A stretch of DNA of 52,579 nt from a virus. Positions 6,301 through 25,878 of this stretch are shown piece after piece; position 1 is the stretch's first letter; every line of letters starts with the position of its first letter. Position numbers and translations under genes: made by a program. The stretch is taken from the IMG/VR virus record IMGVR_UViG_3300009786_000016, positions 1 to 52,579 of that record; one strand, written 5' to 3'. A model generated the notes under the pieces. That model did not search any database and was not told the origin of the DNA. It saw only the letters and a list, made by a program, of their open reading frames with translations.

Positions 6301-9300
6301 TTATCTCGGTCTGCAATGTTGGGAACACCTGAAGCTAATGAATTAATTAGGAAGTGGGAGAAGTCACCTAAGAACGAGACGGCAGAGGCATTATCTGAGA
6401 AATTAGATGAGATTCCAATTCCTAAATTGATGTCTCTTCTTAGAGACCCAAATGGGGTAAACTTAGCAACTAAACTATATAAAAAGTTGTTACGACACAA
6501 TGACGATATGTTAGCTGGTCTAGCAGAAGAAGGTGAGATTAGCAAGGACCAGTACGCTAAAGAAAGTAAGGTTAATCAAGAGTTCTCAACAGCATTAGAT
6601 AGACTTCTTCAGTTATATCCAGAAGGGAATATTGGAGCTTACTTACATAAGTTCTCTAGAGATTACCGAATGGTAGCTATTAGGAACTTCATTGTTAATA
6701 GACTTACAAGACCTAAGATTGATAATAGTGCTGTTTCTAGAATGAGACCTATGGACCCAGCTTGGTTAGTTAAGGACGAGCACGGTCAGTATAAGTATCC
6801 AATGGGTGAGCTAGAGGTCAGGGATGATATATTTTTCTTAGACAATGGTATGAAGCAGAAGATAATAAGAGACCCTGTATTAATTAAAGGTAGAGAGAGA
6901 CTTGGGCATATCTGGGAAGACTTAAAGGGTGGCAAGTATGAGAAGAATAAAGACTACGTAGAAGAGATATTTAACTCAGCCGTTATGCGTGTGCCTATGG
7001 ATAGTATGAGTGGTACAAATATATTAAAGTTTAAAGGTTTTACTGGTGTAAAAGGATATGGTGTCTTACTCCACTCTAGAGCTATGAGAGCCTTAGGTGG
7101 TGCAGACCTTGATGGAGACAAAGCTTTTATATTCTTTGGTGGTGAAGGTGGACTAAAGAAAGAGTATAAGGATATGTATGGCTCACAGAGAGAAGAATTC
7201 ACCGCAATAGGTCGTGATGCGATAGGTAACAAAGTACATCTTGAAACCCACAATAAGAATGAGAAAGATTTATTAGAACCGGGCTCTCTAAGAGAGCAGT
7301 TTATTAAGAACGACCCAGAGATTAAAGCAGAAGGTAATACCCCCTATTCATATTATGACCCATACTGGCGTCACTTTATGAGTGAAGGAGCCGCTACTGG
7401 TCGTGATGTCCTAGGACTTGCTGTTACACAGAGAAGTGCTATTATAGGTGCTTATAATGCTATACGTGGCTATACCGGTAAAGAGTCTGCTGAATTTATG
7501 GTTACTCTAACAAACTCAGATGGGATTGAACTAAAGAATAAAAAAGGTGGTATTAGGAAAGCGACTGCTTGGTTGAAGGATGGAGTTTTCAGTATGCCTT
7601 TTGCTGATAAAAATGGCAATATTATGAGGGTGGAGTTCAAAACAAAGACTGATGCAAAATCATTAAGAGCCTTTAGACAAAGAGCTAGGACACTGATAGC
7701 TCTAGGCTCTGACCCTATGGATGAAGCTGGGTTACAGGACCCAATGACATTCTCTAAGAAGCTTATGGACCCCTTGTTTGAATATACAGTTAGGAGTCAG
7801 AAAGGTCAGGTAAGTAAAGTAGATAAGTGGTGGACTACTGCTTTAAGGTCAGGAGACCCAAAGGCACAGCACTTAGTTGGTCGTGGATTACAAAGACTTT
7901 TTGCTAAAGTTAACAGTGTAGTGTATAGTAAGAATTATCAAGAGAATAGAAGGTGGTCTTTTGCAGAGATACAAGCCGCTACACACTCATTGGACTTTCT
8001 ACCAGAACAGTCTCGTAATACACTACTACCTATGTTAAGTAAAGATATTGCTGGACTTAACTGGACTGATAATATGTTTAGAAGGGTTGACTTCCCTATG
8101 CTAAAAGCTCTTTATCTAGAACATCAAGATACAGCAAAGAAAGAAGATTGGATGAAAGAAGTCTTAGATAGGAAGACCCTTGGTACTCCTATGGGTAAAT
8201 TAATCGAAATGATTATGGAAAGGAAATTATATACCCCAGATGGTGCGGAAAAGTTAAGCAGAGATAAAGAAGGGTTTGAGAAACTAATAGATGAAAAGTA
8301 TGGTAAAGCTAAGGGTGCGGATGGAAAATACTATGACCTATATACTGTTGGAGAAATACCTTGGGGATTTAGACCAAGGAAGACAGGTAATCCTGACTAT
8401 AGGCGTGCATTTATTGAGCATTTAGTATTGAAAGCAGAAGACTATATTGTGAATGACTTGTCAGATATGGTCACACTTAAAAGAATTACTGAAATTATTA
8501 AGAAGAATAAACTCTCGAACTCTGAAGTTTCAGAGCTCCATAAAATGTCTGAGTATATAAAAGACCTCCATTATATGAAATCTAGTATAAGGAAGTCGAA
8601 TGAAGGAGAAACGAAAGACTTCGCTTGGAGAGAAGAAGCTCCCGAAGGCATTAAAATCGAAGATTTTGCAGACTCTAATATGGCTCAAGATAAAAGTTCT
8701 GTTAAAGCTGACCAAATTATTATAGACCAGCAGATTAGAGAGTATAAGAAAGATATGTCTGCGGCGAAAGAGGAACTATTTGACACTTTCTTACTTGGAA
8801 CCTTTCAACGTGGTAATACTAATAAGGTACAGGAGCTTAGGTCCCAGAGATACCTTGCTCCACAAGAACAGGAGATATTAGAGCTTCTAGAGAAGCAGTC
8901 TAAAAATACAGCTCTGTCTAGAGTAGCTCTAAATAGTCCTAGCGTTGCGGATATTAACATTCGCAGGTTCTTTGAAGAATACAACAACCTATTTAAAAAA
9001 GTAGGTGGAGATGGAAAGGTTGATTTAGATGCCCTTAGTGATGGTATAGTAGCTAAAGAAAAGGTTGTTAATCTTAAAGATGGTGATGGTAAGAGATGGG
9101 AAGGTCAGATTATAGAAGAAGCTGACTTAAGTTCGAAAGACAATAAATATCTAGATGAAGTTGAACCATTTAGGGGACTGACTAAGGGGGCTATAAAAGA
9201 CCCAGAGTTAAAGGAAATTTACTTAGATTTAAAAGCACATCTTGAAACTACGCTACATAATTCTGATGCTAAGAATATTAACTTCTTGTTTAGAGGTATT

Positions 9301-12150
9301 ATTGGTAAGAATATGAATAAGGGGGATAAGCAAGACTGGAAAGTATTCAGGAACTATCTTGATGAGCTTAATACTCCAACATTTTGGCGTAAATCTTGGG
9401 ACTTTATACTAGGTAAGAAGACTATTCCAGAGATACAGAGGGTTTATTATGCTAGTTTCCCAGCTACAATAGATAGAAACCTTCAGAAATCCCCAGCTAT
9501 GAGACAACTGAAAGATACTATCGGACCTTATGAAGACAGGTTAGGTAATACTATTATGGGTAAGATTAAAACGCCTGTAAGTCCTATAGCCGAGATACAA
9601 CAGTTCTCTGGTAAATCTACAGAAATTTCTATGGCACAGATAGAGCAGGAAAAGGGAAAACTGAAAGAAGCACTAGCACCATATGTTAGTGCTCTCCCTG
9701 AAGGCGATGCGTTTTTTGATATGGCTATTGCTATTAGAGAACGTGGAATGATTCAAAGAGTATTGAGACAGAAGACTAAAAACCCATTACTTACACACGA
9801 TGAGATGGTATATGAACAGCCTTGGAAAGAGATAAGAGAAGCTTTCTATAAAATGCGTGATAAAAATTTTAAGGTTGTAGTAGGTGGTAAGGTTAACTTA
9901 CTAACTGGTGGTGAGGTTATAACAAATATTAATAAGATTATCACTAAGCAGAACGAGGTTACACATAGATGGTTAGTTGGGAATCCCAAATCTATAGATA
10001 AGTGGCTTAGTATAGCTAGAGAAGGTGGGGATAAAGAGACTTGGAAAGGTTTAGATAAGCTAAGGATGGATTGGTTTAAGTATAATGAGGAGCTCATTAG
10101 GACTGGTAAGCCATTACCTATTGAAGAGTTAGGAATAGATGGGGTAAGGCAAATTGGTAAAAGGATTATAGGCAGTTTTATACCTGAACCAATGAGAAAA
10201 TCTGGCGAATTACAGAAGCTTATTGATAAGATAGAGATTACATCAAATGATATGACTGGAGAGCTTCCATTTGAGACCTATTTCCCGCATATAAACTTCG
10301 ATAGAAATATTGCTACTGCAAATTTAGACAAAGCTATAGAGACTATCACTAAGCAGTATAAGAATGGTGAAATAGAACTAGAGGAACGTGATAGAACATT
10401 GAAGCGTTTAATGACGCACTATCGTCAGGTTACTGGTGATTGGTTAGCTAAAGACGAGATGAGTGAGAACTTCGATGCTATGCAAGAGGTTCTTCAGGCT
10501 ACTGCTGAAGGGAGAAAGAAAAAAGCTCAGAATATTCTTTCTGGTGGATTAAAGAAAGTAGGTAACCAGTTTTCAAGAAAGGCACATCTTGGTGGATGGG
10601 ATAGAAGTCCTGAAGCATACGATAATTATATGAAACAAATCCTAGATTCTTTTTATAAGCAGTCTATGCAGATACAGAATAGAATTGTTATACAGGAATT
10701 TGGTAAAAGATTTATCAAATCAAGTGGTGATGCTAAGTTGACTAACTCTTGGCAGAACTTCTTTAAGCTTTACGCTCAAAGTGCTATGGGTTATCCATCA
10801 CATATACCTGAGACAGTAATGAATGACTCTAATATGAAGCTTAAAATGACCCCATATAAGTGGTTTGCCGATAGTCAGACAAAGAAACGTGTTGATTTTA
10901 TCAGGAAAAAGCTTGGTATAGGGCGTAAAATGCTCAAAAAATGGGGCTTAGACAAGAAAACCATTGATGAGTTGAGTGGTGTATCTTATGGTACGTTGAA
11001 TAATTGGTCTGCTATGGAAGCTAAATACCAATTAGCATCTCTACTAGCTCACCCTAAAAGCTCTATTGCTAACCTGTATGGTGGTACTGTACATACAGTT
11101 ATAAACTCTGGTTACCAGAACTGGAGAAACGCTAGAAGTTTTGAATATTTAAAGACCCATATTAATCCAGAATGGAAAGGGATGGAAGACGTAGAGAGAT
11201 GGTTACAGAATTTAGGTGTTACTGAAGAATTTTTAATCTATGAAGCCGGGCTTAATCCTAATATTAAATCACAAAGATATGAGAACTTTGTTAAAGATGT
11301 AGCTAAAAAACTAAAGAAAGACCCTAGTATGGCTGATAAGACATTGCTAGAGTTAAAAAGAAAGCATAAGCTTACTGAAACTATGTGGAATGCCGCCGCA
11401 TCCTTTATGCGTGTACCTGAAAGAGTGTTACGTAGAGACGCTTTTATGTCTCACTACTTACAGGCTAGGGAAAAGTTTGGTAATGCAATAAAAGATTATG
11501 ACCACCCTTTCTTAATAGAGATGGCTAAGAAGGGTGTTAAAGCAACGCAGTTTTTGTATAGTGCTCCGTATAGACCGATGTGGACTAATTCAGCTCTGGG
11601 TAGGGTGTTTAGTAGATTTCAGTTATGGAGTTGGAATAGTGTTAGATTTAGAAATGACACTATAAGAGAAGTACAGCTCAGGGGCGTAATGCCGGGTACT
11701 GAGGCTTTCGATAGGATGGTAAGGTTAGCTCAAGCTGATGCGTTTATGTTGGCTATGAGTAACTTATTTCTATATAGCCTCTTTGAAAGTGCCTTGCCAG
11801 CACCGTATAATTGGTTCCAAGATACTGCTGATTGGCTAATGGGTGATGATACAGATAAAGAGAGAGCTTTCTATGGCTCTGTTTTAGGACCAGCACAGAT
11901 GATTGCTCCACCATCAATGAGATTAGTAAGTCCTATGTTTAAGTGGTTATTACACGGCGATTCTGAACGTCTTACTGATTACTATCTATGGACAATGTTG
12001 CCTTTTGGAAGAATTATTAGAGATATATGGGGTCCGGGCGGGGCTCTTGAGAATCCTTACTATGCTGTGACGAAGGTATCTGGAATACCTATCTCTCAAA
12101 TAGGTAAAACCTTAGCAGATGAGTCTGCTTACAACCCTAGAGGATACTAA
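3352..12150 (+). CDS. Giant virion protein with two-barrel RNA polymerase-like core, 2932 aa
   Basis: Seen: a DLDGDK loop at residues 1252-1257, preceded by R1213-V-P1215, a glycine-rich turn and LLH1241. RNA polymerase beta-prime has RAP...G...LH...NADFDGDQ with almost the same spacing (P to first D 33 residues there, 37 here). In multisubunit and single-chain two-barrel polymerases the three Asp residues bind catalytic Mg2+. About 350 residues upstream is a second barrel-like segment: TDGG 832-835, K860, GALLGK876 and SGIK905QLG, resembling the Lys-bearing first barrel of single-chain enzymes such as YonO, crAss-phage virion RNAP and eukaryotic RdRPs. The remaining ~1650 C-terminal residues are unassigned, with one hydrophobic helix near 2796-2816. 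ATG 3352 directly follows the previous stop, with GGAG upstream. The position among ejected virion proteins suggests packaging and injection. Gene reality is certain; polymerase activity is inference. Confidence 0.75.
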   Translation: MALIPPEGWEPKGDQKSIRDAVFKYRTNPELFDEDSVDDLETNASHFRIPFARSEEHQDAAIFRFIKQAAQGWSEGFTTLPPEKLGFGSEPKTTGEGIARNLGHLAGFIGYLPGRRWMPALKALQGRSVPMAVAGAVQRRVVKKVNPMLKEMGPWALKASKGNLLSDMASGAFHLGVASGVSSWTHGVDEIIKSSMYGAGFGAAFRGIGNLPGFGNKLKAGSQIDMATGMPVLKTLSPGQKADLGIRTMAGSVFQGLPSTLQGATTEEQVYNYIMGGYFGLKEQPFQTRKSREFLIKSMKDKTGPIPKEHPEYEGLTEFMKEIVDRDHMEFFGPEESRNMTYDLLSGGRLDIEDIEKLAENNDVDLEGIKVDPVTGEKYDAITRDTIQKYRDDLVEKGAYEDMGELDSHIAKIEDLAKSGQPLVSFVQTHLKGNWEKEDHPEIAMMKIAADVNQVWKGLHYTAKDGYSRPKKNANKEMEEYFAETHGTTLNEEQSGWWRAFYEQNRRKKPVQLLTMEDGVIKFMDGPTNALGNRKDLHFEPPLIEGLFKRERAETGNKLDEPFYTYLDHMIFKGREYELFKAPKDLARDMFQAERNKEENSDFTNYELRQYLEKKAKGIIDKSIGQSIQELNSHGYYYLGGKGDAKRMYFVKYHPKLKNNDPFFKNTKKLIKEAYGKLPKDHPNYMTGEQWDKYYKSGKQRFLKSLALGAKDGERIYDKSMLSNYLYDITFNGFEIKPNNAQDLYSSTSLSEGFQKVIGSGYINNAKGYNKRAQIWFNTGLSATPEYISERVLDTDGRAFNVRIFSEAKTPQDADGRVEVGRLLNSEQAESTDGGLIGRSDVVDSLNSDKGLPTSGGVNKSFIVSPDPKDGALLGKYMIHTASPELEKWMHEENVHILAPESGIKQLGERVPESLKYDESTDTWDMPLKDYKVPIYAFRTIMSEKTSEKYIKPQNLPKQMYSTLSAFGSVDGSSDVIKAMYADLSRSAMLGTPEANELIRKWEKSPKNETAEALSEKLDEIPIPKLMSLLRDPNGVNLATKLYKKLLRHNDDMLAGLAEEGEISKDQYAKESKVNQEFSTALDRLLQLYPEGNIGAYLHKFSRDYRMVAIRNFIVNRLTRPKIDNSAVSRMRPMDPAWLVKDEHGQYKYPMGELEVRDDIFFLDNGMKQKIIRDPVLIKGRERLGHIWEDLKGGKYEKNKDYVEEIFNSAVMRVPMDSMSGTNILKFKGFTGVKGYGVLLHSRAMRALGGADLDGDKAFIFFGGEGGLKKEYKDMYGSQREEFTAIGRDAIGNKVHLETHNKNEKDLLEPGSLREQFIKNDPEIKAEGNTPYSYYDPYWRHFMSEGAATGRDVLGLAVTQRSAIIGAYNAIRGYTGKESAEFMVTLTNSDGIELKNKKGGIRKATAWLKDGVFSMPFADKNGNIMRVEFKTKTDAKSLRAFRQRARTLIALGSDPMDEAGLQDPMTFSKKLMDPLFEYTVRSQKGQVSKVDKWWTTALRSGDPKAQHLVGRGLQRLFAKVNSVVYSKNYQENRRWSFAEIQAATHSLDFLPEQSRNTLLPMLSKDIAGLNWTDNMFRRVDFPMLKALYLEHQDTAKKEDWMKEVLDRKTLGTPMGKLIEMIMERKLYTPDGAEKLSRDKEGFEKLIDEKYGKAKGADGKYYDLYTVGEIPWGFRPRKTGNPDYRRAFIEHLVLKAEDYIVNDLSDMVTLKRITEIIKKNKLSNSEVSELHKMSEYIKDLHYMKSSIRKSNEGETKDFAWREEAPEGIKIEDFADSNMAQDKSSVKADQIIIDQQIREYKKDMSAAKEELFDTFLLGTFQRGNTNKVQELRSQRYLAPQEQEILELLEKQSKNTALSRVALNSPSVADINIRRFFEEYNNLFKKVGGDGKVDLDALSDGIVAKEKVVNLKDGDGKRWEGQIIEEADLSSKDNKYLDEVEPFRGLTKGAIKDPELKEIYLDLKAHLETTLHNSDAKNINFLFRGIIGKNMNKGDKQDWKVFRNYLDELNTPTFWRKSWDFILGKKTIPEIQRVYYASFPATIDRNLQKSPAMRQLKDTIGPYEDRLGNTIMGKIKTPVSPIAEIQQFSGKSTEISMAQIEQEKGKLKEALAPYVSALPEGDAFFDMAIAIRERGMIQRVLRQKTKNPLLTHDEMVYEQPWKEIREAFYKMRDKNFKVVVGGKVNLLTGGEVITNINKIITKQNEVTHRWLVGNPKSIDKWLSIAREGGDKETWKGLDKLRMDWFKYNEELIRTGKPLPIEELGIDGVRQIGKRIIGSFIPEPMRKSGELQKLIDKIEITSNDMTGELPFETYFPHINFDRNIATANLDKAIETITKQYKNGEIELEERDRTLKRLMTHYRQVTGDWLAKDEMSENFDAMQEVLQATAEGRKKKAQNILSGGLKKVGNQFSRKAHLGGWDRSPEAYDNYMKQILDSFYKQSMQIQNRIVIQEFGKRFIKSSGDAKLTNSWQNFFKLYAQSAMGYPSHIPETVMNDSNMKLKMTPYKWFADSQTKKRVDFIRKKLGIGRKMLKKWGLDKKTIDELSGVSYGTLNNWSAMEAKYQLASLLAHPKSSIANLYGGTVHTVINSGYQNWRNARSFEYLKTHINPEWKGMEDVERWLQNLGVTEEFLIYEAGLNPNIKSQRYENFVKDVAKKLKKDPSMADKTLLELKRKHKLTETMWNAAASFMRVPERVLRRDAFMSHYLQAREKFGNAIKDYDHPFLIEMAKKGVKATQFLYSAPYRPMWTNSALGRVFSRFQLWSWNSVRFRNDTIREVQLRGVMPGTEAFDRMVRLAQADAFMLAMSNLFLYSLFESALPAPYNWFQDTADWLMGDDTDKERAFYGSVLGPAQMIAPPSMRLVSPMFKWLLHGDSERLTDYYLWTMLPFGRIIRDIWGPGGALENPYYAVTKVSGIPISQIGKTLADESAYNPRGY

Positions 12151-17421: not shown

Positions 17422-17583
17422 CTAAGTGTCCTCCATCATTATGTCGTGCTTTGGTTTGGAATTTTGTTTCCTTACCTCTGTTTCGATAATGTACTCTACC
17501 TGTTTCTTTAGTGACCGTTTATCTTTTCTTGCCATTTCAGACAACAGGATTTTTGTTTTAGGGCTAACCTCAGCCTTAAGCAT
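17422..17583 (-). CDS. Arc-like ribbon-helix-helix protein, putative, 53 aa
   Basis: The gene begins inside the last codons of the primase-helicase gene (8-base overlap) and ends immediately before the Gp157-like start. The pattern is a short strand (AEVSPKT), helix 1 (ILLSEMARKD), a turn (KRSLK) and helix 2 (QVEYIIETEV), then a charged tail. This matches Arc/MetJ-type ribbon-helix-helix repressors, whose dimers bind operators through the N-terminal strand. It could autoregulate the replication operon. Confidence 0.5.
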   Translation of the reverse strand: MLKAEVSPKTKILLSEMARKDKRSLKKQVEYIIETEVRKQNSKPKHDIMMEDT

Positions 17584-19435
17584 ATGTGTCTTTACCACTC
17601 TGTACTCCTTTTACTGGTAATCTGAATGAAGGTGTCCATTCAAGGTCTACCTCAAATAAATCACCATCACTGTTTTTGAATAACTGTACTGTTTTATCTT
17701 TACTGTCTTGACGACCATTAATACCGATTACTTTCCTTGATGCGTTTTCAATAGCACCACTGCCCTTTCCTGCGTAAATGTCGAGTACTTCGTTTCGACT
17801 GTATTCACGTGAAATTTGAGAAATCTGTATAATGATAACATCACTATTAACAGCAAGATTCGATAGATAGTGTGAAATGTAACGAATCTGTTCATACTCG
17901 CCTCTAATATTTCTTGGAGTTTGCAATAGGTCAATGTAATCGACAATAATGATTGCTGGGTCTAGTTCCTTGATTTTCTTATTAATCATAGTTACTTCTC
18001 CAGCTACTGTCTGAATTACAATGTTACTAACATACTCTTTGAATGTTTTCCCAACATATTGATGGTTCTTAGTGACTTCTTCCTTACTCAGTCCACTTGC
18101 TATCTGTAGATTACGCCTGTGCATATACCAACCACTTAATTCTAAAGATAAGAATAGTGTAGGTAATTGCCACTCAGGTCTAATACAATCATTAGCAAAG
18201 TCATACCCTAAAGCTATATTTTGTGCAAGCGTCGTTTTATTAGAACCAGTAGGTCCAAATATCGTGACTAGCTCACCCGGATATATAGCACAATCCTTAT
18301 CCTTTAGACCGAACATCTTTGCTAGGTCCAGCATCCTACCTGAATAATCAGTTTCTAATCTTTCAGACAGGTCTTTTTGTAACTCGTCAGCATTCTTTAC
18401 ATCGACTAAATAGTCTTTGTTCTTGTAATAAATGCACCTAGGGTCACATACAGGTACTAATATCTCATCTTGACAGCCATACTTATATCCTCCATTATAA
18501 CTTCCTTCGACTTTATCAATTATAATTTGTGGATTCAGTTGGTTGTTGTTCCAATGTAGTAGCGACGCTTTAGCCGCTTCACTAGGGATACCGTGTCTAC
18601 GCATATGTGATGCAATACGTAAAACAGTATTATTCCTAGTCCCAGAGACAGGTCCCCTTTTATAAAGAGTTTGTATACAGGGCACTATGTTTCTTGGCTC
18701 TGATACCTTTGACATCTCTTTAACTTCAGGAACGTCCTTATTAATGTGTTTCTCTAAGGATTGGTCTCCCCATAAGTCTGAATGTCCATAACTTAGTCTT
18801 CTACTACTAGCAATTTCGTGTATCTTTGCTACAGTTGATGACTGTACTTCTTCCAAACTTAATGGTACTTTGAATAACTGCGATTTGATGTTTAATGTAT
18901 GCGGAAGGCGTATTAATGCTGTTCGAGTATAGACGGATGGGTCTATATCGCAGACTTCTTTTAGCATAGTCACCATTGTCTGTTTTACGACAAATGGTAG
19001 GTCAGGGCTCTCTTGAAAGCCAAAAGACTCATTACTTATATCTACGTGGTATCCATTACCAGAGAAATAAGTCTGAAAGTTCCCTTCCCTTAAACTTAAC
19101 TCATTAATTAAGTGGTAGACTAATGCTTGTACTTGTCTAAGAGTATGCTCATCAGTATTCTGTCCTTTATCAATGTCAATAGGAATATCAGTGATACCTC
19201 TTGTCCCCAAGAAATTCTTTATAGTACCATTCTTTTTGATAAAGTTTAAAGCTTCTGCGTCATAAGTGTAGACGCTTTTATAGACAGCTTGATTTGCTCC
19301 CTGTTCATAGACCAAGTCCCATAAATCATCTATGAGTACGAGAGCCCCCCGTCTAGAGGGGCTCCCGACTGCGACTTCTACGTAATCCAGACTAAAACCT
19401 TGTAGGTTCGCCAGCAACGGTATTAGAAACACCAT
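17576..19435 (-). CDS. Primase-helicase (AEP primase plus DnaB-like helicase), 619 aa
   Basis: Residues ~50-200 carry archaeo-eukaryotic primase motifs: IDID (D87, D89) for metals, SGNGYH130, and RLPHTLNIK near 176-184. A primase C-terminal-type region follows (~250-335), with C321, C330 and C334. A RecA-fold helicase of DnaB/gp4 type comes next: Walker A GPTGSNKTT (394-402), Walker B IIIVDYIDLL (495-504) and an IIIQISQISR sensor (535-543). It should unwind the fork and prime synthesis. The assigned ATG lacks a good ribosome site and overlaps the SSB-like gene by 44 bases. The true start may be a non-ATG codon just downstream, near a GC-rich hairpin at 19342-19364. Confidence 0.85.
   Translation of the reverse strand: MVFLIPLLANLQGFSLDYVEVAVGSPSRRGALVLIDDLWDLVYEQGANQAVYKSVYTYDAEALNFIKKNGTIKNFLGTRGITDIPIDIDKGQNTDEHTLRQVQALVYHLINELSLREGNFQTYFSGNGYHVDISNESFGFQESPDLPFVVKQTMVTMLKEVCDIDPSVYTRTALIRLPHTLNIKSQLFKVPLSLEEVQSSTVAKIHEIASSRRLSYGHSDLWGDQSLEKHINKDVPEVKEMSKVSEPRNIVPCIQTLYKRGPVSGTRNNTVLRIASHMRRHGIPSEAAKASLLHWNNNQLNPQIIIDKVEGSYNGGYKYGCQDEILVPVCDPRCIYYKNKDYLVDVKNADELQKDLSERLETDYSGRMLDLAKMFGLKDKDCAIYPGELVTIFGPTGSNKTTLAQNIALGYDFANDCIRPEWQLPTLFLSLELSGWYMHRRNLQIASGLSKEEVTKNHQYVGKTFKEYVSNIVIQTVAGEVTMINKKIKELDPAIIIVDYIDLLQTPRNIRGEYEQIRYISHYLSNLAVNSDVIIIQISQISREYSRNEVLDIYAGKGSGAIENASRKVIGINGRQDSKDKTVQLFKNSDGDLFEVDLEWTPSFRLPVKGVQSGKDTYA
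19342..19364 (-). promoter_or_regulatory. GC-rich hairpin at the 5' end of the primase-helicase gene
   Basis: GAGCCCC and GGGGCTC pair perfectly around a nine-base loop. It follows the stop of the SSB-like gene and lies within the first ~30 codons of the annotated primase. It could attenuate transcription or mask a start. If primase translation starts further downstream, the hairpin is intergenic. Confidence 0.35.
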
Positions 19436-20018
19436 TACTAACTGGTCGAATTGCAGACATATCGGCTTCTTTAATAAGATTCTTGCCTTTAAGAAATTCT
19501 ACATAACTTTGTAGCTCTTCTTTGGCTTTAGTCTCATTCTTTACCAGTCTTGGGTACACAGTTGTATATGACTTAGAAGGGTCTTTACGACCGGGTTCTT
19601 TGTATACATAACCATATGCGTCAAAACGTGGTACTAATGGGTTACCAGCGTGATGTTGCTCTAAGTATAACACTAGGTTATCTATAGAAGCACCATCGGC
19701 ATCTACCCAATTACCCTGTACATCAGGACCTCCTTGAAAGCCCACTACATCAAAAAGCCAATAAAGTCTTTTCAATAAAGTACAAGTTTTGATGTTACCG
19801 TTGCTCTCCTTATCATAGGAGCCTGCAATCTTCATTTCCACAGGATACTGTGAACCTTCAATTTGCAGGGTGATACTAATAAAGACATCAGCCCAATCGA
19901 ACATATCGGCTTTGTCTTCATAGCCCATTACAGCTACGGGTAGAAAACCCAAGAACTTACTTCCACCATCGGAAGCTTTGTCTAGGTCTTCTGGACGAAA
20001 ACGCATTGTATTACTCAT
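19392..20018 (-). CDS. Putative single-stranded DNA-binding protein, 208 aa
   Basis: The protein is beta-rich in its first two thirds, consistent with an OB-like fold, with a helical tail (about 165-190). It sits directly between a Sak4-like ATPase and the primase-helicase, where phages commonly encode an SSB-like partner. The call rests on that context and on composition, not on a motif. AGAGGAG precedes the ATG. Confidence 0.45.
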   Translation of the reverse strand: MSNTMRFRPEDLDKASDGGSKFLGFLPVAVMGYEDKADMFDWADVFISITLQIEGSQYPVEMKIAGSYDKESNGNIKTCTLLKRLYWLFDVVGFQGGPDVQGNWVDADGASIDNLVLYLEQHHAGNPLVPRFDAYGYVYKEPGRKDPSKSYTTVYPRLVKNETKAKEELQSYVEFLKGKNLIKEADMSAIRPVSNGVSNTVAGEPTRF

Positions 20019-20022
20019 AGCG

Positions 20023-20895
20023 TTATTTCTCCTCTTTGTAGTTTAGGATTTCATCACGTACTACGTTAAAGTCAAACAGTAACTTCTTTTGATTCAGAGG
20101 CTTGAGTCGAGACCCAATTACTCTTTCATCATATGCTTCAAAAGAAACATAGTAGTTACCATCGTCCTTACTCGCAGTGGCATAACCTATTACATCTGCT
20201 TTGGCGGCAAGTGAATACCCAAGTCCTCTCGGGAGCTCAGGTCCAAGTTGTGCCTTACCATCTGTAACAACTGTTGATTTTGCGTGTGAAAGCAATACTA
20301 GATTGCCTCCTTTTTGTTTAATCAGCATTTGGAATCGTTTAATTACATCAATGTTCTTACGTCTGGCTTTTCCCCAGTCGGCTCCCCATTGACCCTCTCC
20401 CATTGCTGATATTCCCAGTTCCTCACAAACAGTGTATTCTATCCATTCGTTTACTTGACCTATCGTATCAATTACAATAGTGTCATATGGTAGACTATCC
20501 CACTCGTCAGCGAGCCAATTAAACACTTCGATTAACGAATATGCTTCTATTGGTTCACCCTTGTTCCCCCCAGCACGTGCTTTAAAACCACGTTCTAATG
20601 GAGGAACAATTTCGTTTTGTGCCTTACCACCCTTAGTTACCTGTTTCTTGTCTTTAAGAACAGGTCTTGTAGGGGGGTTTAAGGAAGCGATAGTTACTGC
20701 GTTTACTCCATCTACGAAATCAGACCCTAAGTCTGTATCTAATAGTAGGACGCCATCGTTTCCTTGTTCAGACCAGCCAGAAGCGGCTGTTGTTTTACCT
20801 GTTTTAGGCTGACCGATGAGTAGCCACGTTAGACCGGCGGGCATTGCCTTCCAGTCTGTCGAAACTTTCCTCACGGCTATCTTTGGTGATTGCAT
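20023..20895 (-). CDS. Sak4-like RecA-fold ATPase (AAA_24), 290 aa
   Basis: Walker A GQPKTGKTT (28-36), Walker B YDTIVIDT (D143) and a polar LLSHAKS sensor (201-207) place it in the AAA_24/Sak4 group of phage single-strand annealing or RecA-like recombination ATPases. The second ATG (20895) is preferred: it has AAAGGAG six bases upstream, while the ATG at 20901 abuts the ribosome site. The gene start lies inside the end of the E1-like gene (92-base overlap), so the recombination and ubiquitin-like modules share one transcript. It probably works with the SSB-like protein downstream. Confidence 0.8.
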   Translation of the reverse strand: MQSPKIAVRKVSTDWKAMPAGLTWLLIGQPKTGKTTAASGWSEQGNDGVLLLDTDLGSDFVDGVNAVTIASLNPPTRPVLKDKKQVTKGGKAQNEIVPPLERGFKARAGGNKGEPIEAYSLIEVFNWLADEWDSLPYDTIVIDTIGQVNEWIEYTVCEELGISAMGEGQWGADWGKARRKNIDVIKRFQMLIKQKGGNLVLLSHAKSTVVTDGKAQLGPELPRGLGYSLAAKADVIGYATASKDDGNYYVSFEAYDERVIGSRLKPLNQKKLLFDFNVVRDEILNYKEEK

Positions 20896-21592
20896 TTGCA
20901 TCTCCTTTAGGTTTTGGTACTATTAATGTCCCATATTCGACCATATTAGGGCTCAGGCTAGACCAAATATAGTCATAATAGGCTAATTTAGCAATCATAT
21001 TGTATACTTGAGCTGACCCAAGTGACACTATATGTTGCGTTGCAAATACTGTATGTTTCATCGAACAAGGTGCTTCTTCTACTGCACTTGTAGGAATCCA
21101 TTCCTTTAGGTAATTGTCAGTATGTCTCGTTACTGTAGACATTTCTACTGTAGTTGCACCCATTCTTAAGTCAATAAAGAAATGACCAGTGCCTTTGGTA
21201 CGAGAAAGACCGTCCTTCCACATATCATACACCATTCTTCTAGATTCCATATCATCTGTACAGACTATCATTTTTGGCAGTACTACTGAATTATATTGGA
21301 AATTGTTTTCTGCTCTAAATTGTTGCCAATCTTCAGAATATTCCCTATGTAAATCGTCTGCCGCTTCCTTCTTTAACTTACCTGATTGATACAAAGGATA
21401 AGCTGTTGAGCTGAAATTATGGTCTTCAACTCTATCACTATCCCATCCCCAAATTGACTGCCATCCCATAACAGTTAAATTTTGGAGAAGAAATGAACCA
21501 ATCCCACCTAATCCTACTATACCTATCTCTGTTAATTTTGGAATAGGTATTAAATCCTTATTTCTAAGGAATCTTGTGCTTATTGCATCCAT
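20804..21592 (-). CDS. ThiF/E1-like adenylyltransferase, 262 aa
   Basis: Rossmann nucleotide site IGIVGLGGIGS (23-33), acidic D51xD53, E56DHN59F, GKLKK (71-75), TDD114MESR118 and a candidate catalytic C176 in EAPCSMKHT. This order matches E1/MoeB/ThiF enzymes, which adenylate the C-terminal glycine of a ubiquitin-like protein and usually pass it to a cysteine. The arginine normally following the conserved Asn (NxxRQ) is absent here (NFSST), as in my recollection of some phage ThiF-like proteins with N-x-S-Q. AAAGGAG precedes ATG 21592. The same operon holds a Ubl, an E2-like enzyme and a JAB peptidase. The ~40-residue C-terminal tail is basic and may be disordered. Confidence 0.85.
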   Translation of the reverse strand: MDAISTRFLRNKDLIPIPKLTEIGIVGLGGIGSFLLQNLTVMGWQSIWGWDSDRVEDHNFSSTAYPLYQSGKLKKEAADDLHREYSEDWQQFRAENNFQYNSVVLPKMIVCTDDMESRRMVYDMWKDGLSRTKGTGHFFIDLRMGATTVEMSTVTRHTDNYLKEWIPTSAVEEAPCSMKHTVFATQHIVSLGSAQVYNMIAKLAYYDYIWSSLSPNMVEYGTLIVPKPKGDANAITKDSREESFDRLEGNARRSNVATHRSA

Positions 21593-22017
21593 TTAACGAA
21601 CTCCTTTAACATAATATGTGCTTCAGCACTGTTGCCGAACATAGCTATGTCTTTAATCTTAGTTGCTTCTTCACGTATTTTCTGAACTTTCTCATCTGCT
21701 TCGTTGCGTAAAGTGGAATTTATATAAGATGACTTACGTAAATATGATTCCCAGCCAATAAAGAAACTCTCAATGTTTATATTAGGCATATAAGAATGAC
21801 TATACTGTGGTCCACTTGACTTTAGATTATTTCTTATTAATTTTTCCATTTGACTCTGATTAATTAGCTTTATTTTCCCATCGTCTAGTCCTTCTAAACA
21901 GATTGCTTTCTCGTTCTTTGGCTCCTTTACCTTGTTCCATATATCGTTCTCTTTCCTGAGAGTTATCTCGTCAATCCTATTGCAGAAATACTTCTTTTGT
22001 GGTACTGTCATACCCAT
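21580..22017 (-). CDS. Hypothetical helical protein coupled to the E1-like gene, 145 aa
   Basis: No recognised motif. Mostly helical, charged, with a possible coiled coil near 105-130 and a C-terminal HIMLKEFVKWM helix. Its end overlaps the E1-like start by 13 bases, and it lies between the JAB and E1 genes. It is therefore a candidate accessory component of the conjugation pathway (adaptor, target or E3-like factor). That role is inference from position only. Confidence 0.5.
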   Translation of the reverse strand: MGMTVPQKKYFCNRIDEITLRKENDIWNKVKEPKNEKAICLEGLDDGKIKLINQSQMEKLIRNNLKSSGPQYSHSYMPNINIESFFIGWESYLRKSSYINSTLRNEADEKVQKIREEATKIKDIAMFGNSAEAHIMLKEFVKWMQ

Positions 22018-22321
22018 ACTACACTCCTTATTTATTAAGTTATGAGACTAGGGGACAAACCGGGAGAATTAACTCCCGAAAAGTGCACTCGATAGCATTG
22101 CTCTCTGGCTCTTTTTAACAAGATGTCCCCATTATAGTCTCGATCGGGTCAGTGGTCAGGCATATAATCTGAAACCACCAACTTTTCTCACACCAGTATT
22201 ACAATCAAGACAAGACTTTCACTTGCCACGACTCCGCTTCCTCCCAGATTCAGAGTCCATACAGGGTTGGTGTATGTGCTTGTTTCTTGCATACTTAATT
22301 ATAATACCTATGGTGTGATAG
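22018..22321 (-). other. Gap inside the ubiquitin-like operon
   Basis: About 300 bases separate the 145-residue gene from the end of the -1 frame extension of JAB. It contains the folded element at 22044-22141. A doubtful 34-codon frame at 22188-22292 (minus) has a hydrophobic end but no convincing ribosome site. Nothing else is seen. Confidence 0.4.
22044..22141 (-). ncRNA. Predicted structured RNA element
   Basis: GAGACTA and GGGGACA at one end pair with TGTCCCC and TAGTCTC at the other (14 bp, interrupted by a four-base bulge). They enclose a perfect hairpin CGGGAG-AATTAA-CTCCCG. The 7-bp closing stem plus inner arm is superficially tRNA-like, but there is no standard anticodon or T arm. 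It could be a leader of the 145-residue/E1 genes, a processing site or a stand-alone RNA. Confidence 0.4.
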
Positions 22322-22531
22322 TTATCCGTAATAGCCTGATGCGTAAAGATGCGGGTCTACGTCTGGGCAATTACTACGAATTTTATCAATGAACTCGTGT
22401 TCAGTGATTACTTCTTCCTCTAGCTCTTCGAAGATAGCTTCAGCATTGACCAGTTGTGCTGTCAAACTTTCGTCCCAGCACTCATTGTTATCTTCGAAGG
22501 GAGTGCTATCGCTACGTTCTGGTCGTCCTGC
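22322..22531 (-). CDS. -1 frame extension of the JAB gene (69 codons)
   Basis: Starting at an A AAA AAG heptamer (22537-22531) that lies in the exact phase needed for -1 slippage from the JAB frame, the -1 frame stays open for 69 codons and then stops at TAA. The residues look coding: acidic and helical (LVNAEAIFEELEEEVI), ending DPHLYASGYYG. The fused product would be 294 residues. No independent ribosome site is evident; a TTG overlapping the zero-frame stop is the only local start. The explanation could be programmed frameshifting or a homopolymer sequence error. Confidence 0.55.
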   Translation of the reverse strand, partial: AGRPERSDSTPFEDNNECWDESLTAQLVNAEAIFEELEEEVITEHEFIDKIRSNCPDVDPHLYASGYYG

Positions 22532-23205
22532 TTTTTTGGCAAATCAGGTGTGTCGTCATAGTAACCATTGTAATATCCACCGTGTACATAACCGGGAGAT
22601 TGATTGGGAATCAAATGAAGTTGACCATTCCCTCTAACATAGTTAGTTTTAACCACCTTTTGTGCTTTTTCTATCTTCTTTGCTTCAGCGACCCACTCTT
22701 TAGGTACATCCATTTTATAATCTGACTCTACGTCACCTTCTATAAAATTAGGAAACCCAAAATGGTCTCTGTAACTAACACCTGTACAGAAAGGGTCTTT
22801 TGCTGACGCTACTACTGTCGTGAAAAAGAGTCCTTCTGGTGGTGCTTGGTCAAGAGCTGTTGATTCATCAGTTCCACTGAAAAATGCTCCCATTGTATGG
22901 TGTGAATGTATTAACCCAAGATATGCGTCCTTTAAATGTGCATTCATCTTGTATATCTGGGGCAATATCTTGCCTAATTTCTCACCATCTACTTCTGTAG
23001 CAGTTCCATCACCTAAGTCCATAGCAACAAAATGTGCTAATGAAACTTTAGATGGGAAACCGTTCTTTTCACGTTTTATGACTTGATACCAAGCAGGTCC
23101 CGACCACTCGGTATTTTTAAAACGAGTCAATAGAAAGTTGATTTTCTCCACTATCTTGTTCGGCAAGTTCACCGTAAGCGTTGGTTCTTCTTTTACGATA
23201 CTCAT
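22462..23205 (-). CDS. JAB/MPN metallopeptidase (deubiquitinase-like), 247 aa
   Basis: The JAMM zinc site is complete: E33 in TEWSG, then H100-S-H102, S110 and D113 in HSHHTMGAFFSGTD, the H-x-H-x7-S-x2-D pattern. Such enzymes cleave isopeptide bonds after a Ubl C-terminal glycine or trim a Ubl precursor. A G/Y-rich linker (GGYYNGYYDD, about 209-218) precedes the A AAA AAG slippery site at codons 224-225, after which the zero frame gives only 22 more residues. The start has AAAGGAG and lies 89 bases inside the end of the E2-like gene. The expected role is recycling or editing of Ubl conjugates made by the neighbouring E1 and E2 proteins. Confidence 0.88.
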   Translation of the reverse strand: MSIVKEEPTLTVNLPNKIVEKINFLLTRFKNTEWSGPAWYQVIKREKNGFPSKVSLAHFVAMDLGDGTATEVDGEKLGKILPQIYKMNAHLKDAYLGLIHSHHTMGAFFSGTDESTALDQAPPEGLFFTTVVASAKDPFCTGVSYRDHFGFPNFIEGDVESDYKMDVPKEWVAEAKKIEKAQKVVKTNYVRGNGQLHLIPNQSPGYVHGGYYNGYYDDTPDLPKKQDDQNVAIALPSKITMSAGTKV

Positions 23206-24757
23206 TCGTTACTCCTTTATAGAGAGTTGTTAGGTCACTTTTTAATATCCTAGTTACTTCACAATACATTTTGTTGAAGTACTTCTCCATTATATCTGTG
23301 ACAGTTATGGGTAATAATGCTCTATGTATCTGCATCATTATTCCCCGAAGTTGTTCCCCATAAATCTCTCTTTTATTTATGGAAGTGTCTTGTTGTCCCT
23401 GTATTGTTAACCATTCAGCCAACATTTGTTTTGGGTCGAAAGGAAGTACACTTGCGTGAGTTGTCTCCATATTACCATACTCTCGTATAGCGTGAAGAAA
23501 ACATAGCAATCTATAAGCATTTGTCCTAAATGGTTGAGATGCTATTACAGACCTTTCAATGTATGCCCCAAGAACTTGATTAACATCGCTGTTACTCATA
23601 AATACGTTAGCTCTTGGTACCTTATCCCCTAGCTTTGTATGAGCTATTAGACCCTTAGATTTCAAAACCTGTTGTAAATCAGCATACCTTGACCGTGTAT
23701 GGTTAAAGTTCCCTAATCTATAGGTTATGTCTTCTAATACAGGAGGAATAGTAAAACAAATGTCTTGTCTACTAGAAAACAGTCCTTTTCTCCTGAAACC
23801 TGTCAATACTTCTTCAGCCACTGGATAAATGCCAATTTTTAGCGTATCTAGTGATTTGTCAAGCATTGTGTTGAGTAAAAGCCTGTATACTCTAGCCATT
23901 TTATCACAAAATCCTTTCAGAATCCTTACATCACCATCTTGTGTATCAATGGTATGGGTTAATGACTTTTTATAACCGAGATGTGCTATGAAAGCAGTCT
24001 CCCAGTCTATTTTCATACCACTAAGTATGTCTTTATTATCATCATACCAATCTGTGAAATCCCTGTAATGATTGCCTGTATTCCCTTGTCCCCTACTATG
24101 GTTGTCATAATTTATAGCTTCAGCTAATTTCCTTATCACATAGTAATCTTTAAAGAAACGAATACCGTGATGATGTTGTCCTTCTTCTTGCCAATCTCTG
24201 TGATAATAGTTAATGTCCCAATAACAATCAACTCTCGTCCAATTATTAAGAAATGACTGTGATACATTTACTAATGCTGGGATATTACTATCTGCTATTG
24301 TAGCAGACCAAGGTGCTGAAAATTGTCCCAAACAAGGTACACCATCAGGTGAAATGTGTGGGTGTAAACTTAAGGGTAAATTATTCAAATTTGAGGTTCT
24401 GTAAGGACCCGCCGGAGGTTGGTCATCACTTAGTCCCGTAGTCAAAGTTTCTCTTAAGTCGTACCAATTTTGATAACTACTGTCCCTATCTGGGATTAAT
24501 CGAACTCTACTAGGTTCAAACAAACTAAACTGTAAGGAATGTGCTTGTAAAGTCATAGGACTTCTAGCTCTTAGCTTGGGTACTCCTACCCTTGCCTTGA
24601 AACTCTTATTAACCCTATCTGGACTATGAAACTCGATTCCTTTATCAATCCAAGTAGAAAGTCTTTGGTTAGCCACAGCTCGACTAGTAGATATTTGGTT
24701 CTCTTTACTGTTTAATCGTATCCATCGTATGATTAATGCTCCTAATGATTTCTCCAT
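23117..24757 (-). CDS. E2-like (UBC-fold) conjugating protein with long C-terminal extension, 546 aa
   Basis: Residues 132-151 read HPHISPDG...C142L...W150S. The H-P-x-I start, Cys ten residues after His and Trp eight after Cys are the same spacing as the ubiquitin E2 signature HPNI...ICL...W. C142 is thus the predicted thioester cysteine; the usual Asn is His134 here. The E2-like region spans about 60-210, and the remaining ~330 residues (no RING or HECT signature seen) are unassigned. ATG 24757 is chosen for AAGGAG upstream; an in-frame ATG at 24814 would add a Gly/Pro-rich stretch with no ribosome site. It lies between the Ubl and JAB genes. Confidence 0.75.
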   Translation of the reverse strand: MEKSLGALIIRWIRLNSKENQISTSRAVANQRLSTWIDKGIEFHSPDRVNKSFKARVGVPKLRARSPMTLQAHSLQFSLFEPSRVRLIPDRDSSYQNWYDLRETLTTGLSDDQPPAGPYRTSNLNNLPLSLHPHISPDGVPCLGQFSAPWSATIADSNIPALVNVSQSFLNNWTRVDCYWDINYYHRDWQEEGQHHHGIRFFKDYYVIRKLAEAINYDNHSRGQGNTGNHYRDFTDWYDDNKDILSGMKIDWETAFIAHLGYKKSLTHTIDTQDGDVRILKGFCDKMARVYRLLLNTMLDKSLDTLKIGIYPVAEEVLTGFRRKGLFSSRQDICFTIPPVLEDITYRLGNFNHTRSRYADLQQVLKSKGLIAHTKLGDKVPRANVFMSNSDVNQVLGAYIERSVIASQPFRTNAYRLLCFLHAIREYGNMETTHASVLPFDPKQMLAEWLTIQGQQDTSINKREIYGEQLRGIMMQIHRALLPITVTDIMEKYFNKMYCEVTRILKSDLTTLYKGVTNEYRKRRTNAYGELAEQDSGENQLSIDSF

Positions 24758-24782
24758 TATTCTTGTTCTCCTTAATGAGAAT

Positions 24783-24805
24783 GGGGGCGGCTCTCCACCA
24801 CCCCC
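24783..24805 (-). promoter_or_regulatory. GC hairpin between the Ubl and E2-like genes
   Basis: In the minus-strand RNA, GGGGGUGG pairs fully with CCGCCCCC (one G-U pair) around a seven-base loop. In the plus-strand RNA the same position would be a C-A mismatch, so the fold suits the operon transcript. It lies just after the Ubl stop and before the E2 ribosome site. It may lower read-through or set Ubl:E2 stoichiometry. Confidence 0.45.
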
Positions 24806-24823
24806 AAACATCAATTTGTGGGC

Positions 24824-25024
24824 TCAGCCTGAAGTGACCTTGCTCGTAGTAAAAGAAACGAAATCTTCGTCTCTTAACTCTGAGTCAAGTGCAACTTTGT
24901 CTGAGTTCACAGTTATGGTAGCATTGTCCACTGAAATGCCTAACTGTTCAGCTATACTTGCTGGGCTGTTAGCATCTACAGTTTTGACAGTGCCGCCGAA
25001 GGTTTGTACTAGTACTTTAGCCAT
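24824..25024 (-). CDS. Ubiquitin-like beta-grasp protein (ThiS/MoaD/Ubl type), 66 aa
   Basis: The small protein follows the beta-grasp order: strands KVLVQTF and TVKTVDA, a helix (SIAEQLG), strand ATITVNS, then DKVALDSELRDEDFVSFTTSKVTSG. The L-x-D-E-D-F-V-x-F step matches the L-x-D-G-D-x-V of ThiS/MoaD proteins. The C-terminus is Ser-Gly rather than Gly-Gly but still offers a terminal Gly carboxylate for E1 adenylation, with no tail to trim. It is the first gene of the Ubl-E2-JAB-x-E1 order. Length and pattern are typical of the family. Confidence 0.75.
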   Translation of the reverse strand: MAKVLVQTFGGTVKTVDANSPASIAEQLGISVDNATITVNSDKVALDSELRDEDFVSFTTSKVTSG

Positions 25025-25053: not shown

Positions 25054-25440
25054 TTAAGAGCTTTTTCTTGGGCGTCCACGTTTGGGCTTTTTCTCTAGTT
25101 CCCCGAGTCTAGCCACTACCGCCTCAAAATCAAGCATTAATTCGTTAAAGCTTGTATTCATTGAGTCTATGGCAGTTTTACTCTGCCTGTCTTCATAGAA
25201 TAGCTTGTTTACTTGTTTCATTAAACTGAATGTCTTCTGTGATGTCCAAGTAGAAAAGTTTTCAGTTTTCCATCGTTCACCTGAAGCAGTTACAGGTTCC
25301 CAACACTTGTTACTTGCTGGGGGATTTGACTGTGGTGATGGGTATTTGCTTCCTTTATTACTGTACGTTTTATAGTTACGTGAACTCTGTCCAAATATCA
25401 TACGATATAGTGGACGTAACATTGATTTGATTTTTCTCAC
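25054..25440 (-). CDS. Hypothetical protein with C-terminal AT-hook-like motif, 128 aa
   Basis: A basic N-terminus, a low-complexity S/P/N segment (about 25-45), a helical region near 70-115 and a terminal KRGRPRK. The GRP core flanked by basic residues is the AT-hook signature that binds the minor groove of A+T-rich DNA. It sits immediately upstream of the Ubl gene in the operon. It could be a nucleoid-type DNA binder or a conjugation target rich in lysine; this is inference. Confidence 0.5.
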   Translation of the reverse strand: MRKIKSMLRPLYRMIFGQSSRNYKTYSNKGSKYPSPQSNPPASNKCWEPVTASGERWKTENFSTWTSQKTFSLMKQVNKLFYEDRQSKTAIDSMNTSFNELMLDFEAVVARLGELEKKPKRGRPRKSS

Positions 25441-25454
25441 AATGTCTCCTTGTT

Positions 25455-25688
25455 TTATGGTTCTGGGTTATACTCTGGCTCGAAACGGTGACCTAGTACA
25501 TCAGGGTCTTCGGTGTGATTACAATCTAGGCATAAAATGCCAAGTTCGGAGTTTGCCGCCATACACTCTTCTAGCTGTGAGGCATAAGCATACTCTTCGA
25601 ACACTGTGTTATAAGAATCACATTCCGCACACTGCAACTGTGCTGGGTCACCGCCTATGGGAACCGAGTTTTTTATGAAATCAGGCAT
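25455..25688 (-). CDS. Zinc-ribbon-like small protein, 77 aa
   Basis: Two CxxC knuckles, CAEC (20-23) and CLDC (53-56), frame an acidic segment and are followed by an acidic, proline-containing tail. This is the pattern of a small zinc ribbon. It overlaps the membrane-protein gene upstream by 8 bases. Function unknown. Confidence 0.5.
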   Translation of the reverse strand: MPDFIKNSVPIGGDPAQLQCAECDSYNTVFEEYAYASQLEECMAANSELGILCLDCNHTEDPDVLGHRFEPEYNPEP

Positions 25689-25878
25689 CTCTATTCTTGT
25701 TTAAGAACAATGCCTTTTCACGCCAATAATCAACGTCTGCTGATAATTGCTCTACCTTCTTGAGATGGTACTGAAGAAAGGTTACAAACATAACCATTCC
25801 TATCATCAGTAAAAGGTAAGAGACTAACAACATCATATCAATTAGGTCTTTATGCTCAATAAAATTGATAATATCCAA
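25681..25878 (-). CDS. Small single-span membrane protein, 65 aa (TTG start)
   Basis: The TTG at 25878 has GGAG seven bases upstream and lies three bases after the preceding stop. The product has one long hydrophobic helix (about 14-37, MMLLVSYLLLMIGMVMFVTF) followed by a charged coiled coil. Early-region membrane peptides of this kind may alter host envelope functions or superinfection; no family recognised. Confidence 0.5.
   Translation of the reverse strand: MDIINFIEHKDLIDMMLLVSYLLLMIGMVMFVTFLQYHLKKVEQLSADVDYWREKALFLNKNRDA

Follow-up and report, generated by a model that had tools for sequence, protein, structure and literature searches.

A ubiquitin-like cassette within the replication operon

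The stretch of DNA analysed here (the window, 52,579 nucleotides) is a single IMG/VR virus record, IMGVR_UViG_3300009786_000016, positions 1-52,579. On its minus strand lies a cassette of five genes encoding a small ubiquitin-like protein (Ubl), a putative conjugating enzyme (E2-like), a JAB/JAMM metallopeptidase, a helical protein and a minimal activating enzyme (E1). All five were found where the initial annotation had placed them, and its residue numbering for the candidate catalytic cysteines of the E2 (C142) and E1 (C176) was correct. The cassette runs directly into genes for a Sak4-like ATPase, an ssb-like protein and a primase-helicase, an adjacency that is borne out by the coordinates of the open reading frames (ORFs) and by matches to phrog_124, phrog_19 and DnaB_C. 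The replication operon occupies the minus strand, and genes for terminase, portal and major head protein lie on the plus-strand side of the same contig. The earlier description of the cassette genes as mostly overlapping holds for E2/JAB (89 nt), helical/E1 (13 nt) and E1/Sak4 (98 nt), but not for Ubl and E2, which are 66 nt apart, or for JAB and the helical gene, which are separated by 444 nt.

The Ubl was modelled with AlphaFold (AF2) from a 31-member alignment, giving a predicted beta-grasp fold (strand-strand-helix-strand-strand) with a flexible C-terminal tail and a predicted local distance difference test score (pLDDT) of 87.7. The best PDB matches of this model in Foldseek were TtuB, ubiquitin, SUMO and NEDD8, in agreement with the beta-grasp assignment made previously, and matches to the ThiS and TGS families were found in 10 and 9 of the 31 members respectively. 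Only L50, S65 and G66 are invariant among the 31 non-redundant members. The SG motif closes the domain in 42/42 unique marine sequences and is followed by an unconserved tail of 0-19 residues, the commonest length being one, whilst the window Ubl stops exactly at the Gly and has no precursor tail. An invariant SG followed by a variable tail is the pattern typical of modifier precursors, in which a peptidase uncovers the terminal Gly. On its predicted fold, the protein thus combines the two features of a ubiquitin-like modifier, namely a beta-grasp domain and an exposable C-terminal Gly.

For the E1, the candidate catalytic Cys176 is retained in 102/102 non-redundant sequences, including those from crAss-like phages and Flavobacterium psychrophilum phages (Fpv). 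The adenylation residues are likewise kept (GxGGIGS, G27, G29-G30, D51, D53, N59, K74, D113 and R118), so that, as judged from sequence, the predicted ATP-binding residues and thioester Cys are in place. Its best solved relative in the PDB is UBA5 (2.5e-10), a minimal E1 in which the catalytic Cys lies inside the adenylation domain. The JAB protein matches Prok-JAB (7.5e-6) and has the complete JAMM motif that had been claimed for it, its zinc-site residues being E33 and H100-S-H102-x7-S110-x2-D113. The motif H[ST]H-x7-S-x2-D is present in 100/106 sequences, and the other six are truncated or interrupted genes. This enzyme is predicted both to trim the Ubl and to deconjugate it. The Prok-JAB match and that of the E1 to ThiF both exceed the Pfam curated cut-offs.

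The E2-like protein comprises an N-terminal domain of ~185 aa, containing HPHIS-x5-PCLG with Cys142, and a fast-evolving helical C-terminal domain of ~340 aa. An E2 active-site signature had been proposed for this protein, and the only fully invariant positions in 47 homologues are H132, P133, H134, C142 and G144. The spacing from His to Cys is 10 residues, the same as in the UBC HPN...C of eukaryotic E2s. In the AF2 model (pLDDT 87, predicted template modelling score 0.80) a helix, a beta-sheet, the active-site loop and further helices precede the large helical half. When the profile of the E2 domain was aligned with UBC by hhalign, using UBE2D2 and UBE2I sequences, a score of 25.5 was obtained with the active sites aligned, against 11.9 +/- 2.5 (maximum 20.7) for 150 shuffles.

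Table 1. Positions of the cassette and of the adjoining replication genes in the window.
Feature	Position	Strand	Details
Ubl	24824-25024	-	66 aa, ends ...KVTSG
E2-like protein	23117-24757	-	546 aa from ATG at 24757
JAB/JAMM metallopeptidase	22462-23205	-	Prok-JAB above Pfam gathering cut-off
Small 47-codon ORF, TTG start	22322-22465	-	Overlaps JAB stop
Structured non-coding RNA stretch	22030-22315	-	Between small ORF and helical gene
Helical accessory protein	21580-22017	-	145 aa, encoded in 60 loci
E1, minimal ThiF/UBA5-type	20804-21592	-	262 aa, ThiF 5e-8, Cys176
Sak4-like ssDNA-annealing ATPase	20023-20901	-	phrog_124, 7e-25; next operon gene after E1
ssb-like gene	19392-20018	-	208 aa, position conserved in relatives
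DnaB-type primase-helicase	17576-19435	-	DnaB_C 1e-14, PriCT_1; phrog_19, 8e-28

A longer E2-like ORF beginning with TTG at 24814 is a less likely alternative to the start given in Table 1. The ssb-like protein matched no family in the Pfam and PHROG scans, its label being taken from the initial annotation. The helical protein, which begins with MT(V/I)PQKKYF and has T-x-IKD...MFG at its C-terminus, is encoded in 60 loci and absent from many; 18 positions are invariant among 23 homologues, and no match was found in Pfam or PDB searches. Between this gene and JAB, the 444-nt gap contains a strongly structured RNA as well as a conserved, previously unannotated ORF of 47 codons. Homologues of the ORF in locus L006 (and L007) share PDxDPHL...SGYYG and the end ...PDIDPHLFVSGYYGYF. 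The RNA stretch has a minimum free energy of -93.2 kcal/mol (z = -4.97), which was equalled by 0/200 shuffles, and it gave no Rfam match.

In relatives the same slot is occupied by different structured RNAs. A motif of ~80-97 nt, GAAGCCAGTAnnTAATAAAACCGnnTACGTG...AAAGCCGGA, recurs in L006 (3838-3932), L007 (7455-7546), L015, L030, L036, L040 and L041 (16261-16342), with compensatory changes at 7/15 predicted pairs in 7 sequences; it matched no Rfam family at the thresholds applied. A second recurrent element, GGGCACGGTTGCTCTGA...ACACCAACGCCGTGCCC, directly follows JAB in another subgroup (L018:3171-3262, L022, L026, L028, L030:4268-4356, L041 and L024). Elsewhere in the window, three small genes lie upstream of the Ubl (25054-25878, minus strand) and encode proteins of 128 aa, 77 aa (zinc-ribbon-like) and 65 aa (membrane-like), the position of each being kept in more than 40 loci. 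Two giant plus-strand genes of 2932 and 1312 aa (3352-12150 and 47025-50963) have no PHROG match.

Conservation and distribution of the cassette

IMG/VR was searched with the JAB and E1 alignments, which gave 289 and 142 confirmed relatives respectively, and the best 80 of each were kept. These loci do not vary in their gene order, Ubl, E2, JAB, (helical), E1: 42 contain all five genes, 34 contain four and are without the helical gene, and the remainder are mostly truncated contigs or belong to the crAss/Fpv group. Sak4, ssb-like and primase-helicase genes continue downstream of E1 in nearly all marine loci of sufficient length. Altogether, about 150 related loci agree in gene order and in catalytic residues. 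It had been set beforehand that the pathway would be called into question if relatives had lost C142, C176 or the terminal Gly of the Ubl, and no such loss was found. Median pairwise identity in 44 loci is 41% for the Ubl, 47% for the E1, 39% for the JAB, 27% for the E2 domain and 12% for the E2 helical half, which is by far the fastest-evolving part. We rejected chance or artefact as an explanation, the catalytic residues being invariant although median identity of the E2 falls to 17%.

A further sample was chosen by the primase-helicase instead of the cassette (510 relatives, best 80 kept), and presence was counted only where the contig extends far enough upstream of that gene. Profiles detected E1 in 50/50 contigs, JAB in 36/36, E2 in 25/27 and Ubl in 18/19; these counts are not fully independent, as the sample includes near-duplicate contigs and shares some of its loci with the sets selected by JAB or E1. 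The profile exceptions were L206 and L211, and we rejected the possibility that these cassettes have no Ubl or E2 once their ORFs had been read. As judged by eye, they encode divergent Ubls ending TGG-KKQ and TGG-VINK, as well as an E2-like protein with HPYIAS...CLSSF. Even so, the cassette behaves as core. The constant presence of E1 and JAB speaks against optional cargo, an explanation that we rejected on the basis of this sampling. The proposal that the phage itself carries the pathway, as a core function of its replication operon, is thus upheld: the cassette is a real, conserved and phage-encoded Ubl pathway. Its "early" timing is something we infer from the operon context only.

Moreover, tblastn with the window E1 and JAB gave significant matches to crAss-like phages and to phages of Flavobacterium psychrophilum, whilst the window Ubl and E2 gave nothing useful against GenBank phages. 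The annotations of the matched genes are thiamine biosynthesis, metalloprotease or hypothetical (e.g. crAss001, DAC15). Directly upstream of JAB in these phages are two proteins, one having a conserved HSH...C-x-G region and the other being beta-grasp-like. A homologous Ubl-E2-JAB-E1 cassette lies in their replication region, by the helicase and primase genes in the crAss-like phages. The profile of the HSH...C-x-G protein scored 29.0 against the marine E2 domain with the active sites in register (shuffles 11.5 +/- 2.1, maximum 15.8). SG is present in 28/28 Ubls of this type, nearly all with a long extension after it.

In the crAss Ubls (L002:4296-4973 and homologues) this extension carries a conserved GLQ..C...(F/Y)GKNFTQC.T..L motif, which we take to resemble helix-extension-helix domains of the HeH/SAP type; it has no Pfam match. 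In three phages JAB is interrupted at the JAMM motif by ~1.0-1.2 kb, namely in L001 (Fpv20, 5722-8014), L127 (5591-7909) and L134 (5125-7488), and is intact in their close relative L128 (Fpv3). The interruption is intron- or homing-element-like, and an Rfam group I/II search gave no match.

A JAB scan of 84,980 bacterial genomes found no relative. The corresponding E1 scan returned two contigs from metagenome-assembled genomes (MAGs) and three remote ThiF proteins that have no cassette around them, and a plasmid E1 scan returned one remote ThiF only. The MAG contigs are both short: L213, from a Clostridium MAG, holds a full crAss-type cassette, and L212, from a Spirochaetia MAG, holds E1 and a crAss-type neighbour. 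Because of this content, both are probably phage contigs that were binned with bacteria. An origin of the cassette in known bacterial genomes was rejected, the JAB scan being empty and the E1 scan having given only these phage-like contigs and remote ThiF proteins.

A candidate conjugation cascade and its alternatives

Taken together, these data favour a complete, phage-owned cascade for Ubl conjugation and deconjugation that is at work during phage DNA replication, to which we assign a probability of roughly 0.68. Its catalytic steps, and what the helical domain of the E2 does, we infer from the genes present. The JAB would trim the Ubl precursor after the conserved SG, the window Ubl being already encoded in its mature form. 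The E1 would then adenylate the C-terminal Gly, carry the Ubl on Cys176 and hand it to Cys142 of the E2. No separate ligase is envisaged; the helical domain of the E2 most likely selects the target, acting in place of an E3, and its fast evolution fits target recognition. Finally, the Ubl would be attached to target proteins and the JAB could reverse this attachment. We tentatively regard phage or host replication and recombination proteins as the likeliest targets, because the cassette is joined to replication genes in both groups, namely Sak4, ssb-like and primase-helicase in the marine phages, and helicase and primase in the crAss-like phages.

Bacterial Ubl systems are known mostly as anti-phage defences, and the cascade might accordingly serve counter-defence or host takeover, either by tagging host RNA polymerase, nucleases or defence proteins or through the stripping of host Bil/CBASS-type conjugates by the JAB. 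The divergence of the E2 helical half would be expected of such an arms race, or of host-specific targeting. However, counter-defence genes are usually patchy, whilst this cassette was never missing where E1 and JAB could be counted and has a fixed place in the replication operon. A role in countering host Ubl-based defence, as had also been suggested for the cassette, is therefore less likely. A decoy or stripper, moreover, would have no need of Ubl, E2 and E1, and overall we consider this explanation unlikely. Still less probable, and indeed the least probable of those considered, is a sulfur-carrier system in the style of ThiS, MoaD, TtuB or CysO, which would supply sulfur to modify tRNAs or cofactors and in which the JAB would cleave off C-terminal extensions. 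It would account for TtuB as the best structural match of the Ubl, for ThiS and TGS as its best sequence families and for the ThiF-type E1, and JAB is found in sulfur-carrier operons too (Iyer 2006). Yet the cassette always includes an E2-like protein whose HPH and Cys are invariant, the Ubl terminus is SG and not GG, and the operon genes scanned include none for a rhodanese, a cysteine synthase, a sulfurtransferase or tRNA thiolation.

The identity of the 546-aa protein is the remaining point at which the conjugation cascade might fail. Its HPH and Cys could belong to another fold or nucleophile (e.g. a condensing enzyme or scaffold), in which case E1 and JAB alone would handle the Ubl. Several results weigh in this direction. 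Pfam gave no E2 family among the families listed for the 47 members, and a whole-chain Foldseek search of the model found nothing significant in the PDB, the sole E2 in the top 50 being African swine fever virus I215L at rank 9 (E = 1.7), or in BFVD. The crAss profile gave no match to UBC directly; because it matches the marine E2 only, the assignment of the HSH...C-x-G protein as E2-like is tentative. Against this, the active-site alignment of the marine domain to UBC exceeds 150/150 shuffles, the predicted order of helix, beta-sheet, active-site loop and helices fits UBC, and even the divergent L206 and L211 cassettes keep a UBC-like active-site region. On sequence and model, we therefore regard the protein as very likely an E2, the fold being well but not decisively supported, and a different fold as distinctly improbable, somewhat more so than a counter-defence role.

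These observations point to protein tagging being a core and hitherto unrecognised part of the multiplication of marine phages and of related gut crAss-like phages. The whole cascade is here owned by phages and seemingly never lost, both in the ocean and, as a homologous version, among cultured crAss-like phages of the gut. It is possible, though somewhat less likely than not, that a complete and autonomous cascade is obligatory for replication in at least two large lineages of phages (the uncultured marine family and the crAss-like/Flavobacterium phages), where it would tag the replisome or host proteins. Ubl signalling in eukaryotic DNA replication is known from PCNA, and if such tagging is true, it would be a phage counterpart to signalling of that type. 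The homologous cassette occurs in crAss001 and DAC15, so that phages in culture, on Bacteroides and Flavobacterium, allow a direct test of its function. The findings also correct a widespread misannotation (as thiamine biosynthesis protein, metalloprotease or hypothetical) and offer a tiny E1-E2-Ubl-JAMM set for work on the origin of ubiquitin chemistry. Searches of the open-licence literature, including the main crAss-phage papers, found no description of such a phage cassette, and earlier publication elsewhere is possible.

Relation to known ubiquitin-like systems

The cassette had been likened to the bacterial BilABCD system, with which it shares four functions (Ubl, E2, JAB and E1), the predicted processing of a Ubl precursor by JAB, the JAB/JAMM peptidase itself and the organisation without a separate E3 gene. 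Identity with Bil was not supported. BilA consists of two consecutive beta-grasp domains, BilD has an inactive and an active adenylation domain together with a Cys domain of ~80 aa, and the BilB E2 carries a CEHH motif (Cys138, Glu144, His146, His151) (PMC11354881). The phage Ubl, in contrast, is one beta-grasp domain ending in SG; the phage E1 is a single ThiF domain without inactive adenylation or Cys domains, and gave no BilD match at E <= 0.1; and in the phage E2 an HPH precedes the Cys, behind which no E/H/H is conserved. The present cassette is also phage-borne, core and situated inside a replication operon.

Class 6d of Iyer and Aravind, which comprises Ubl, a helical protein, E2, JAB and E1, is listed for bacteria, not phages; its JAB has a JAB-N domain with conserved Arg and Trp, and in its E2 the upstream His is missing and a downstream His is absolutely conserved (PMC1779556). 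Features in common are the Ubl, which is small, stands alone and has a conserved C-terminal Gly, and the separate E2, JAB and E1 genes. A helical companion may be shared as well, the phage gene being present in 60 loci and absent from many. However, the phage JAB has no JAB-N, with only 32 residues ahead of the JAMM Glu (E33), and the phage E2 has the invariant upstream HPH and no invariant downstream His. The PRTRC cassette (ParB-related, ThiF-related) is found on mobile elements and brings together genes for a JAB, an E2-like protein, a Ubl and a ThiF. Matches to it were weak (PRTRC_A 0.0077, 15.8 bits against a cut-off of 101.8; PRTRC_ThiF 0.0009, 18.6 against 144.75 bits), with no Prok-E2_D match and no ParB-like gene seen in the cassette. 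Membership in Bil, class 6d or PRTRC was thus rejected, at least one tested defining feature being absent for each. Among phages, lambda tail assembly proteins I and K are also a phage-encoded pair of Ubl and JAB, but these are tail-assembly genes without E1 or E2, at another locus and with another role (PMC1779556).

In the eukaryotic UFM1 pathway (UBA5, UFC1, UFM1, UFSP) the protease is a cysteine protease and not a JAMM enzyme, the phage E2 differs in its large helical domain, and there is no sequence link of the phage Ubl or E2 to UFM1 or UFC1. UFM1 ends VG-SC, its single Gly being covered by a propeptide that is very short, and the phage Ubl similarly has a single terminal Gly. Both pathways, moreover, have a minimal E1 with its catalytic Cys, predicted for the phage enzyme, in the adenylation domain, UBA5 being the best PDB match. 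The likeness to the UFM1 pathway is one of analogy and not of membership.

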